From: Clostridiales bacterium
Lineage (GTDB): Bacteria; Bacillota; Clostridia; Oscillospirales; Oscillospiraceae
NCBI GenBank assembly: GCA_012718935.1
Contig: JAAYBH010000018.1
Location: 1 to 39,042, forward strand
Direction of reading: 5' to 3'
Length of the DNA stretch: 39,042 nt
Numbering within the stretch: the first letter of the stretch is position 1; each line of letters begins with the position of its first letter. The notes under the pieces were generated by a model. That model was not told the origin of the DNA. It ran no database searches and saw only the letters and a program-made list of their open reading frames with translations. Of the stretch, positions 5,293 to 10,194 are shown in pieces. The position numbers were made by a program, and so were the translations under genes.

Positions 5293-5390
5293 ACCTCCTT
5301 AAAATGTGTACACAAGCCGTACGGTGCGGAAACCGTACAACAAGCACGTTAATGTGCGCCACATATAGGAGGTTAAATCTCCGGTATGTA
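5293..5390 (-). promoter_or_regulatory. Expression platform of the THF riboswitch (anti-SD cascade before folT)
   Basis: Read on the minus strand, the folT Shine-Dalgarno AGGAGGT (plus 5293-5299) is perfectly complementary to ACCTCCT (plus 5367-5373). That anti-SD can instead pair with GGAG (plus 5379-5382) in a hairpin reinforced by flanking ACATA/TATGT pairs, directly after the riboswitch P1 stem. A further hairpin, GTACGGT/ACCGTAC with a 6-nt loop, lies between. No U-rich terminator is present, so control is probably at translation initiation. Which state holds when ligand is bound is inference. Confidence 0.6.
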
Positions 5391-5487
5391 GCAGCGGGAT
5401 GCGGACACCGAACCGTGGAATGCTTCCTTCGTCCAACTGACAACTCCCCGTCCAGTCGGCACTTTACGCAGGGCGTCCTACTCTGCT
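5391..5487 (-). promoter_or_regulatory. THF (tetrahydrofolate) riboswitch
   Basis: The minus-strand transcript carries the conserved THF aptamer blocks in order: GCAGAGTAGG, GCGTAAAGTGCC, GGACGGGGAGTTGTC, GGACGAA, CACGGTTCGGTG and GCATCCCGCTGC, with the ends pairing as P1 (GCAG/CTGC). This Firmicutes aptamer class normally stands before folT or folate-synthesis genes, exactly as here before folT-folC. Confidence 0.93.
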
Positions 5488-8531: not shown

Positions 8532-8551
8532 CTAAGTACAACTAAATCATC

Positions 8552-8690
8552 GTTAGGTGAGGCTACTATACGGATATACGCTTCTGCCCGGAAACATCGA
8601 GAGATGCCAATGGGTCAACAGGTATTATCGAATTAAGGTACTACTTAATGGGGCTGCAAGAGCTTTTTGCTGTTGTAACGCCGTATAGAG
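8552..8690 (+). promoter_or_regulatory. M-box (ykoK) magnesium riboswitch
   Basis: The conserved M-box blocks appear in order: GTTAGGTGAGGCTACTATA, GATATACGCTTCTGCCCGGA, AACATCGAGAGATGCCAATG, GGGTCAACAGGTATTATCGA, AATTAAGGTA, ACTTAATGGGGCTGCAAGAG and a closing CCGTATAG. P1 is formed by CTATACGG (8566-8573) with CCGTATAG (8681-8688), 8 bp. M-box RNAs sense Mg2+ and in Gram-positive bacteria usually cause termination when Mg2+ is high. The gene it controls here is a CorA-type transporter, which is a consistent target. Confidence 0.94.
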
Positions 8691-8699
8691 TTAAAACTC

Positions 8700-8747
8700 A
8701 ACGAATGATGGAGCAGCTTTTGCCGTCATTCGTTTTGACGGTTTTTT
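8700..8747 (+). terminator. Riboswitch-controlled terminator and overlapping antiterminator
   Basis: CCGTCA (8723-8728) and TGACGG (8736-8741) with a 7-nt loop form a hairpin followed directly by TTTTTTG, a good intrinsic terminator. The same left arm lies inside CCGTCATTCGTT (8723-8734), which pairs with AACGAATGATGG (8700-8711) over 12 bp (one G-U). The two hairpins exclude each other, giving the ON/OFF choice downstream of the M-box. Confidence 0.85.
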
Positions 8748-8778
8748 GTTTTCCCGGGTCAATAGTTAACGGAGGTGA

Positions 8779-8911
8779 ACGGCATGGACGGTGACTCAGG
8801 CAGCATACGAAGTAAGCATTTCCACCTGTTTTGGGTTTATTTGCCATGCCGTCCGTAGGTCATCTCAGACCTGGCATATAAACCCTCAATAAAGACAATA
8901 TTAAGAGGGTG
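8779..8911 (+). promoter_or_regulatory. Competing hairpins between the M-box terminator and corA
   Basis: Three mutually exclusive pairings can be drawn. (i) ACGGCATGG (8779-8787), which holds the upstream-ORF start codon, pairs perfectly with CCATGCCGT (8844-8852). (ii) GGGTTTATTTGCCA (8833-8846) pairs with TGGCATATAAACCC (8872-8885) over 14 positions with one mismatch, with an inner AGGTC/GACCT helix. (iii) CCCTC (8883-8887) pairs with GAGGG (8905-8909), the corA Shine-Dalgarno. Pairing (i) blocks (ii), and (ii) blocks (iii). This is directly visible complementarity; its use is inference. Confidence 0.6.
8784..8858 (+). CDS. Putative 24-residue leader peptide upstream of corA
   Basis: A short frame with ATG at 8784 has a near-ideal GGAGGTG site 6 nt upstream and ends with TAG, encoding MDGDSGSIRSKHFHLF followed by WVYLPCRP. 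It lies wholly in the corA leader, after the M-box terminator, and its start codon and last codons fall inside alternative hairpins. Mg2+-transporter genes of enteric bacteria (mgtA, corA) have regulatory leader peptides, but this peptide shows no sequence likeness that I can recognise. It is not Pro-rich; the aromatic, basic stretch HFHLFWVY is its only distinctive piece. Translation is predicted only from the ribosome site and context. Confidence 0.5.
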   Translation: MDGDSGSIRSKHFHLFWVYLPCRP

Positions 8912-8916
8912 ATGTT

Positions 8917-9849
8917 ATGGTTAAATTTTTTAAGTCCGTCAATGACGAGCTTGTACAGTTCGAAGCGTTCGAAGACGGCGTTTGGGTTCATATGATTAAC
9001 CCTACGGAAGATGAAATCTTACAGGTATCAAAAGCTACCGGTATCGAAGGCGAATTCATACGCCCCGCGCTGGACGAAGAGGAACGGCCCCGTATTGAGA
9101 CTGATAACGGGCAGACGCTGATTCTTGTCGATATACCGATTGTGGAAGACGACGGCACAACGAACGTTTTCTCCACCATACCTCTCGGTATCGCCTTCGC
9201 AAGAGAAGCCATCATTACCGTCTGCCTTAAGGAGACGCCGATCCTGAATGACTTTATAACGAAGCGTGTCAAATCCTTTTATACATTTTTTAAAAGCCGC
9301 TTCATACTGCAGATTCTTTTCAAAAATGCGACGCTGTACCTACATTATCTGCGGAGCATTGAAAAAATCAGCAACAAAATTGAAAGCGACCTTCAAAAAT
9401 CCATGAAGAACAAGGAACTGGCACAGCTTCTGAAGCTTGAAAAAAGCCTTGTCTACTTCTCCACATCGTTAAAATCCAACGAGTCCGTGCTTGAAAAGAT
9501 GCTCAAACTTGAAGCGATCAAAAAGTTTGAAGAGGACCAGGATCTCCTCGAGGATGTCATCATCGAAAACAAACAGGCTATTGATATGACAAACATTTAC
9601 TCAAGCATTCTTACCGGAACGATGAATTCGTTAGCCTCCATCATATCCAACAATCTGAACATCGTTATGAAATCACTGACAATCGTCACAATTGCGCTGT
9701 CGGTACCGACGGCCATTTCCGGCTTCTTCGGCATGAATGTTCCGAACTTTTTTGAAAACAACCCGCTGGCCTTCCCCATCATCATCATCGGCTCGGTCGT
9801 TTTGTCAGCGCTGACCTCCATCCTGCTGTTCAGGAGACGTCTGTTCTAG
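8917..9849 (+). CDS. corA: CorA-family magnesium (divalent cation) transporter
   Basis: The 310-residue protein has the CorA plan: a large cytoplasmic N-terminal domain, a long charged helix (about residues 130-240, rich in Lys/Glu) and two C-terminal membrane helices. The diagnostic GMN motif is present as FFGMNVP after the first helix (near residue 270), and the protein ends in FRRRLF. CorA pentamers let Mg2+ enter the cell. Expression is controlled by the M-box and the unusual downstream leader at 8552-8911; GAGGGTG lies 5 nt before the ATG. A terminator follows at 9870-9901. The subfamily lacks obvious N-terminal changes; transport of Co2+/Ni2+ cannot be excluded. Confidence 0.95.
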   Translation: MVKFFKSVNDELVQFEAFEDGVWVHMINPTEDEILQVSKATGIEGEFIRPALDEEERPRIETDNGQTLILVDIPIVEDDGTTNVFSTIPLGIAFAREAIITVCLKETPILNDFITKRVKSFYTFFKSRFILQILFKNATLYLHYLRSIEKISNKIESDLQKSMKNKELAQLLKLEKSLVYFSTSLKSNESVLEKMLKLEAIKKFEEDQDLLEDVIIENKQAIDMTNIYSSILTGTMNSLASIISNNLNIVMKSLTIVTIALSVPTAISGFFGMNVPNFFENNPLAFPIIIIGSVVLSALTSILLFRRRLF

Positions 9850-9915: not shown

Positions 9916-10140
9916 TCAGTCTTGTCTTAAAATCCCTTCACCGTCGTAAAAGGACTCCCCGGCTTCCCTCAGCATTCCCTTGCTGTCGATAAAATTGTCA
10001 CCGTCAGCCCTCAGATTGCCGGCGTAATCATAGTAATTCTCGCCGATCTGCCTGACGTTTCCCTGGTAATCGATAAAAGCTTCTCCCGGTTCTCGTAATC
10101 GTCCTTCCCCGTCGTAATAGCTTTCCGATCTAGAATACAT
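9916..10140 (-). CDS. Small protein of five tandem 14-residue repeats
   Basis: A 74-residue protein built almost wholly of repeats with period 14: Asp at 10, 24, 38, 52, 66; Gly at 13, 27, 41, 55, 69; Arg at 16, 30, 44, 58, 72; and Glu/Asp-turn positions at 6, 20, 34, 48, 62. The core is [ED]-x-[YF]-[YI]-D-x-x-G-x-[LV]-R-x-x-G. Units 1, 3 and 5 have YYD or FYD and units 2 and 4 FID, so a 28-residue double unit is likely. It looks like a chain of beta hairpins; I do not recognise a named family. GGGAGG lies 5 nt before ATG 10140, which rules out the upstream ATG 10155. No signal peptide or membrane segment. It has its own promoter at 10195-10223. Function unknown. Confidence 0.78.
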   Translation of the reverse strand: MYSRSESYYDGEGRLREPGEAFIDYQGNVRQIGENYYDYAGNLRADGDNFIDSKGMLREAGESFYDGEGILRQD

Positions 10141-10194
10141 CTCTTCCTCCCGCATCGTATGGAAAATATGCCGCCAGCATTACCTATACATGGA

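Follow-up and report, generated by a model that had tools for sequence, protein, structure and literature searches.

Sensing of Mg2+ by the translating ribosome is, to our knowledge, known only from a few enteric leaders, and enteric mgtA is controlled by Rho-dependent termination. MgtL of Escherichia coli K-12 consists of 17 residues and starts MEPDP; the available part of PMC11282234 describes ribosome drop-off at the EPDP of MgtL under low Mg2+, and the capture of a stabilised ribosome whose P site holds Pro3. For mgtQ, an 8-codon ORF between mgtC and mgtB of Salmonella, excerpts of PMC8092293 report three competing stems, 1:2, 2:3 and 3:4, the last of which contains the ribosome site of the downstream gene, a need for the acidic codons 2 and 5, and liberation of the site by an early ribosome. 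Enteric corL is a leader ORF before corA whose translation opposes corA and which holds fewer acidic and proline residues than mgtL (passages of PMC11552253). In Mycobacterium tuberculosis, a conserved short ORF lies behind the M-box of pe20, together with a translational platform, the role of the peptide being unknown there, and the main text of PMC12810186, in the part available, does not use the terms mgtL or leader peptide; an M-box with a conserved ORF downstream is, on that partial text, already in print. The corA motif RNA is a structured RNA before corA that was speculated to respond to Mg2+ or Co2+ and was found in Gammaproteobacteria and metagenomes only, according to the accessible part of PMC6429828. 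Among the matches listed from a literature that was mainly open-access, we found no description of such leader peptides in Clostridia.

The locus described here lies in a 39,042-nucleotide stretch of DNA from a Clostridiales bacterium, hereafter the window, and comprises the following features:

8542..8716, plus strand: M-box (Mg2+ riboswitch) aptamer RF00380, 139.9 bits against a gathering score of 44, model positions 1-169 of 169
8700..8734, plus strand: antiterminator helix, 8700-8711 with 8723-8734, predicted duplex of -17.8 kcal
8722..8747, plus strand: intrinsic terminator, stem 8722-8728/8736-8742 and T run, -10.1 kcal
8771..8777, plus strand: Shine-Dalgarno site of the leader ORF, GGAGGTG, read directly
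8784..8858, plus strand: leader ORF of 24 codons, MDGDSGSIRSKHFHLFWVYLPCRP, ATG at 8784 and stop at 8856-8858; proposed ribosome-based Mg2+ sensor
8779..8852, plus strand: helix P1, closing the leader ORF start, 8779-8787 with 8844-8852, 9/9 pairs
8833..8885, plus strand: helix P2, the anti-sequestor, 8833-8846 with 8872-8885, 13/14 pairs
8882..8910, plus strand: helix P3, sequestering the corA ribosome site, 8882-8887 with 8905-8910, 6 pairs
8917..9849, plus strand: corA, Mg2+ transporter gene, PF01544, E 5.2e-50

The M-box and terminator that the initial annotation had placed before corA are both present, the M-box match starting 10 bases earlier than had been given. In the predicted structures, the 5' arm of the antiterminator is also part of the 3' strand of the aptamer closing helix, and closing helix and antiterminator exclude each other, with the terminator downstream. 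This M-box is the sole RF00380 match in the assembly, which is 93% complete. A scan of the window with 4227 Rfam families at gathering score matched only the M-box and a THF riboswitch (RF01831, 86.7 bits, window 5390-5487, minus strand); the corA motif RNA was not matched, and Rfam may not hold that motif. The window resembles that motif in having structured RNA before corA, but it is not gammaproteobacterial. Convergent with corA on the minus strand (window 9916-10155) lies an ORF of 79 aa with repeats around GE-x-FYD/YYD-x-x-GNLR.

The 24-codon ORF proposed behind the M-box, with its excellent ribosome site, is confirmed by the ATG at 8784 behind GGAGGTG. Its peptide starts Met-Asp-Gly-Asp, with Asp2 and Asp4 present and without proline. 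As with MgtL, a short predicted ORF with a strong ribosome site precedes a Mg2+ transporter gene, here as a member of a family under in-frame codon selection; the M-[DE]-x-D(-P) start and the alternative folds are likewise shared, and ribosome loss at low Mg2+ is proposed for the window as well. A CGA codon is present in E. coli mgtL, too. Unlike MgtL, the window belongs to another phylum and another transporter family, has an M-box in front and a peptide without proline, and its predicted output is the corA ribosome site rather than Rho-dependent termination. Helices P1, P2 and P3 follow, in the models, the same switch logic as mgtQ, although mgtQ is shorter, enteric, located inside an operon and has no riboswitch in front. 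The window shares a leader ORF before corA with enteric corL, which is however Rho-dependent and starts with UUG, and an M-box preceding a conserved short ORF with pe20, where the M-box itself controls the ORF and the gene is not corA. In function, the sensor would be closest to MgtL and the switch closest to mgtQ.

The initial annotation had suggested that the leader ORF adds a second layer of sensing, for instance of an amino acid. The cascade survives our analysis; as its signal, Mg2+ is again more probable than an amino acid. Direct reading of the window peptide revealed no run of codons for one amino acid, and none was noticed by eye in the leader peptides of the corA, mgtE and TrkH-control scans. 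For this reason the signal is probably not an amino acid, and amino-acid attenuation was rejected. What the peptide family conserves is an early acidic(-proline) start resembling the one in MgtL, and on this ground we regard Mg2+ as the probable signal.

The helices proposed earlier are all formed by the sequence, P3, first described as CCCTC with GAGGG, being one pair longer than stated. The exclusion of P2 by P1 also holds, but not through their cores as first given, which overlap by just 3 bases (8844-8846); it is strong because the full predicted P1, which begins at 8772, occupies the whole 5' arm of P2. When the ORF start and the corA ribosome site of the window were fixed and the middle was shuffled (1696 usable of 2000 shuffles), the energy of P1 or P2 was matched by none of the 1696, while P3 alone was matched by 157 and is thus unremarkable by itself.

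Folding of positions 8761-8945 with an imposed ribosome footprint supports the earlier proposal that a ribosome on the leader ORF start would free corA, since in the models P1 is removed, P2 forms and P3 is removed. Without a ribosome, P1 reached 0.98, P2 0.00 and P3 0.99, and 8.7 kcal were needed to open the corA site. A ribosome on the start codon gave P2 0.83 and P3 0.04 with opening at 3.8 kcal, a ribosome on codon 4 gave P2 0.73 and P3 0.17 with opening at 2.7 kcal, and once the stop codon had reached the A site, P3 was back at 0.97 and the cost stood at 9.7 kcal. The corA site was unpaired with a probability of 0.01 in the absence of a ribosome, 0.34 with one on the start codon and 0.28 with one on codon 4; folding of 8740-8930 as a second frame gave 0.32 and 0.17 for the two ribosome positions, the codon-4 state being weaker there (P2 0.26, P3 0.70). 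P3 is lost in the ON models, yet the corA site is paired elsewhere much of the time. With the footprint one codon past the termination state, the corA site of the window reopens by 4 kcal. Folding thus reproduces the mgtQ arrangement of stems 1:2, 2:3 and 3:4 with an early ribosome opening the site, the freed site remaining partly paired.

The ORF and the helices are conserved in close relatives, as the initial annotation had asked to be checked. CorA identity to the window is 85-86% in Sporobacter termitidis (L003/L022), 72% in L004/L023, 71% in L005 and L006 and 62% in L024, and the leader ORF of each starts MDGD or MDSDP. P1, P2 and P3 were recovered as best duplexes with overlapping arms in 6/6 clade leaders, window included, by a search that reports the best duplex per segment, the shuffle test covering the window alone. 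Pairs were counted by script on five P2 arm pairs and five P1 arm pairs. The P2 arms of L005 and L006 have very different sequences and retain pairing at 16/17 and 15/17 positions; P3 in these two is CCCAC/GTGGG. Footprint folding predicted no release in L006 and L024, a weak one in L005, and no re-closure in L004. An Rfam scan of 31 loci found an M-box before corA in L004/L023 (a single locus represented twice), L024, L036 and L038, and such a leader ORF is present in all of them. The same scan gave no M-box match in the corA leader of S. termitidis, whose alignment revealed that the promoter-like sequence, the terminator, the ORF and the helices are kept and the aptamer core is missing. In L022, the S. 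termitidis copy, this M-box leader without aptamer core lies about 225 to 140 bases before corA.

Leader ORFs of this kind, a widespread set that begins M-x-x-[DE]-P or M-D-x-D, were counted by scanning the 330 bases upstream of each gene for an ORF with a ribosome site and, within it, [DE]P in residues 2-6. The discovery set comprised 59 loci, 56 of them scorable, after removal of L022 and L023, which duplicate L003 and L004. For a second set, also from the order, 60 of 84 places were used; the window was omitted, as were 13 places that were weak or partial and 10 in genomes already present in the discovery set; a class-wide set took 70 places, mostly the best scoring among the matches listed, of which 67 were scorable. 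The species within these sets are related to each other. A broad motif was settled on between the discovery set and the second set, whereas the [DE]P measure was chosen only once the second set was known.

An early [DE]P occurs in 22/56 corA leaders of the discovery set (100 shuffles: mean 0.4, maximum 3), in 36/60 of the second set (100 shuffles: mean 0.5, maximum 2) and in 13/67 of the class-wide set, mostly the best scoring among the matches listed (shuffle mean 0.4-0.5, maximum 3), that is, in 71/183 scorable leaders over the three sets. The broad motif was found in 38/60 second-set leaders, against a shuffle mean of 2.4 and a maximum of 6. Reverse complements yielded the motif in 0/56 and 0/60 cases, other ORFs in the same loci yielded [DE]P in 0/189 and the broad motif in 1/189, and a control set of TrkH leaders from the order (30 places) yielded the motif in 0/29 scorable. 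Within the class, [DE]P was absent from the 27 scorable of the 30 top-scoring loci (L151-L180), which apparently represent another CorA subgroup, and present in 13/40 of loci L181-L220. No motif filter was applied to 79 strong-site ORFs in corA leaders, and an acidic residue stands at position 4 in 56 of these and proline at position 5 in 47.

Before mgtE genes of the order (30 of 56 places, 27 scorable), the broad motif occurs in 4/27 leaders, and an ORF starting M-[DE] in 15/27 (shuffle mean 0.8, maximum 4), a measure chosen post hoc, with the mgtE set already known. The corA leaders of the order show no enrichment of an acidic residue 2 (4/60, shuffle mean 2.9). Among 18 M-box places in 295 genomes of the order, an ORF with an acidic second residue follows in 11, does not in 6 and is doubtful in one (L110); among the genes behind these M-boxes are corA, MgtE-family genes and genes for MgtA-like ATPases, the last assigned mostly by resemblance; Pfam was run on L098 and L107. 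One of the M-box loci, L100, has two successive candidate leader ORFs after a single M-box, MDAGSRRKYS and MESGSKRSPEPDGR, before an MgtA-like ATPase, the second read by eye and not scored by the scanner. An M-box as a rule before mgtE was rejected, as none was found in the 20 loci scanned, yet L225, L227, L233 and L240, of the 10 unscanned, stand at M-boxes. The putative device of the window is, judged by these sequences, not peculiar to its leader, since ORFs of this type are also seen where no M-box precedes them and in front of mgtE genes. By eye, the leader peptide MDPERSTPVPLPRFVKFSN before corA in L007 resembles E. coli MgtL along its length.

The likeness of the leader ORFs is limited to roughly the first 11 codons; their tails differ, and the [DE]P peptides range from 13 to 50 aa, 50 being the upper limit of the scan. 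This speaks against the ORF product being a functional small protein with the transporter as its target, as does the folding of P1 and P2 over the coding part. A mycobacterial M-box does control a conserved small ORF for which a regulatory peptide was proposed (available part of PMC12810186), and we nonetheless consider a small protein most improbable for the present family.

A scan blind to the genes, in which a ribosome site had to be followed by M-D-x-D-P codons, does not match the window itself and led to the same gene families. In 323 genomes of the class, the pattern gave 17 matches and its reversed control 4; 13 matches open an ORF of at most 40 aa, a limit set after the matches had been seen, and 12 of these stand before corA (9, five of them from one genus) or an MgtE-family gene (3), L295 being the one short ORF before neither. 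In 149 genomes of the phylum, nearly all from other classes, pattern and reversed control gave 7 matches each, with 4 short ORFs, two before corA and two, from one genus, before an MgtE-family gene. Taken together, the two scans produced 24 matches, and 16 of the 17 short ORFs precede corA (11) or an MgtE-family gene (5); the remaining 7 matches stand at the start of ORFs of 60-442 aa. Pfam searches covered L287, L288, L290, L291, L301, L302 and L303, and the other corA calls are PF01544 places or rest on sequence likeness. L287, L302 and L303 encode proteins with MgtE_N, CBS and PRC domains and no MgtE membrane domain in the stretch read. L098 encodes a similar MgtE_N/CBS protein, likewise without the membrane domain in the stretch read, PRC being present in 3 of the 4; the type may belong to Mg2+ homeostasis.

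The codons of the leader ORFs are constrained beyond their amino acids. Among 88 leader ORFs selected with the broad motif, arginine within codons 2-11 is encoded as CGA in 50/75 cases, against 36/719 in corA genes, and serine as AGT in 75/120, against 116/1293. Throughout codons 2-13 a constraint is visible for Arg CGA, Ser AGT, Asp GAC and Pro CCT, in frame and at drifting positions. In a set of 109 leader ORFs from corA, mgtE and M-box loci, the reading frame is kept by 27/27 occurrences of CGAAGT, at codons 4-13, by 18/18 of AGTCGA and by 62/63 of GACCC, the last partly a result of choosing ORFs for [DE]P; 117 kb of corA coding sequence contain CGAAGT 14 times and never in that frame. The in-frame CGAAGT and AGTCGA therefore indicate that translation of the leader ORFs uses this frame and that conservation reaches beyond the amino acids to the codons themselves. 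An interpretation of CGAAGT as an RNA motif was discarded, as the frame is kept while the position drifts from codon 4 to 13 and the order of Ser and Arg flips. On sequence grounds, the CGA/AGT signature is read as selection on decoding. Ribosome destabilisation as published does not predict this constraint and alone leaves it unexplained; our guess is that slow decoding after the acidic start would prolong the vulnerable state.

The same signature favours a different reading, in which the leader ORF senses another translational stress, such as tRNA charging (Arg-CGA, Ser-AGT, Pro), EF-P/ABC-F status or ribosome drugs: the codons are constrained in frame while positions vary, and Salmonella mgtC leader ORFs respond to ATP and charged tRNA-Pro (available part of PMC8092293). 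Such a sensor would, however, have to be reconciled with the lack of a codon run for one amino acid, with the most constant residues in unfiltered ORFs being the acidic residue at position 4 and proline at position 5, and with the placement of all but one of the 17 short M-D-x-D-P ORFs before Mg2+ transporter-family genes. We regard it as unlikely, and prefer a ribosome-based Mg2+ switch.

Control by RNA alone, with the M-box or the three helices regulating corA and the ORF incidental, would agree with the complete M-box and with a free fold that already closes the corA site. It would not account for the in-frame codon selection and the enrichment of the motif, and S. termitidis keeps ORF and helices without the aptamer core. 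The idea that the Asp-Pro codons are an RNA element pairing with the corA ribosome site was likewise tried and rejected, as codons 2-8 of 87 leaders pair with that site no better than swapped ones do (own 9.80, swapped 10.21, sd 0.17). Control by RNA alone thus appears very unlikely.

The modelled effect of the ribosome extends beyond the window. The gain in opening with a ribosome at the ORF start beat all 12 shuffles in 41 of 74 corA leaders, about 6 being expected. With the ribosome at the last codon instead of the start, the corA site was at least 2 kcal harder to open in 24 of the 74, and in 10 it was easier by 2 kcal or more; on average the difference was 0.8 kcal, compared with -0.5 in shuffles. 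An unselected scan of 87 corA leaders, covering codons 1-16 only, gave a median gain of 2.0-2.4 kcal at codons 1-5, which fell to 1.3 kcal at codon 6, 0.7 at codon 7 and about 0 at codons 9-16; a gain of at least 2 kcal was seen in 47/87 leaders at codons 1-5 and in 3/87 at codons 11-15, the gain staying below 2 kcal in 40/87. As the gain peaks at codons 1-5, the span that would throw the switch is the span holding the acidic-proline motif, and in the models the two sets of positions coincide. Only in part of the family, to which the window belongs, do the models clearly show a finishing ribosome switching corA off. In a set of 34 leaders, many of them picked for strong effects, many reopen with the ribosome near the end of the ORF. 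Before mgtE, no such release was predicted, with a gain in 2/15 leaders only, and release of the ribosome site was dropped as an output there; a loose scan found intrinsic-terminator-like sites after the ORF in 6/15. Intrinsic terminators after the ORF were dropped as a general output before corA (9/87 by a loose scan).

The elements themselves, their conservation, the in-frame selection on the ORFs and the position-dependent opening come from sequence and modelling. Based on these, we propose the following hypothetical mechanism, in which (i) at high Mg2+ the M-box would halt transcription at its terminator; (ii) messages that pass the terminator would have their leader ORF translated; (iii) at low Mg2+ the first codons (Met-Asp-Gly-Asp in the window, Met-x-x-Asp/Glu-Pro in many relatives) would destabilise or hold the ribosome; (iv) ribosomes on, or lost within, about codons 1-7 would block P1 and let P2 form; (v) P2 would strip the anti-Shine-Dalgarno strand from P3, so that corA is translated; and (vi) with enough Mg2+, ribosomes would reach the ORF end and break P2, whereupon P3 closes the corA site and corA is off. 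In this scheme we infer Mg2+ as the second-layer signal, ribosome drop-off at the start and the effect size. We consider it fairly probable that corA is under a ribosome-based Mg2+ switch resembling those of MgtL and mgtQ and acting in series with the M-box, and we put this no higher because the freed site is partly paired and re-closure is clear in 24/74 leaders.

Whether the device extends across the phylum we judge to be evenly balanced. In that case, ribosome-based Mg2+ sensing through leader ORFs starting M-D-x-D-P or M-x-x-[DE]-P, with in-frame CGA/AGT codons pointing to the decoding step, would control CorA, MgtE-family and MgtA-like genes in Bacillota, alone or behind an M-box and with gene-specific outputs. 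It would then be a general device of Bacillota, the anaerobic Clostridia included, and a ribosome sensor and a dedicated Mg2+ riboswitch would coexist in one message. S. termitidis would offer a natural experiment, the riboswitch core being gone and the peptide switch remaining. Two questions would become testable: whether it is the nascent chain or decoding at special codons that reads low Mg2+, and for what reason two Mg2+ sensors would be stacked in one cell. A related start was met inside genes: in L293 and L294, coding sequences of the CNNM/CorC type (CNNM and CorC_HlyC domains by Pfam in L293, likeness in L294) begin MDPDPNG behind a GGAGG site, perhaps as an in-gene version of the same sensor.
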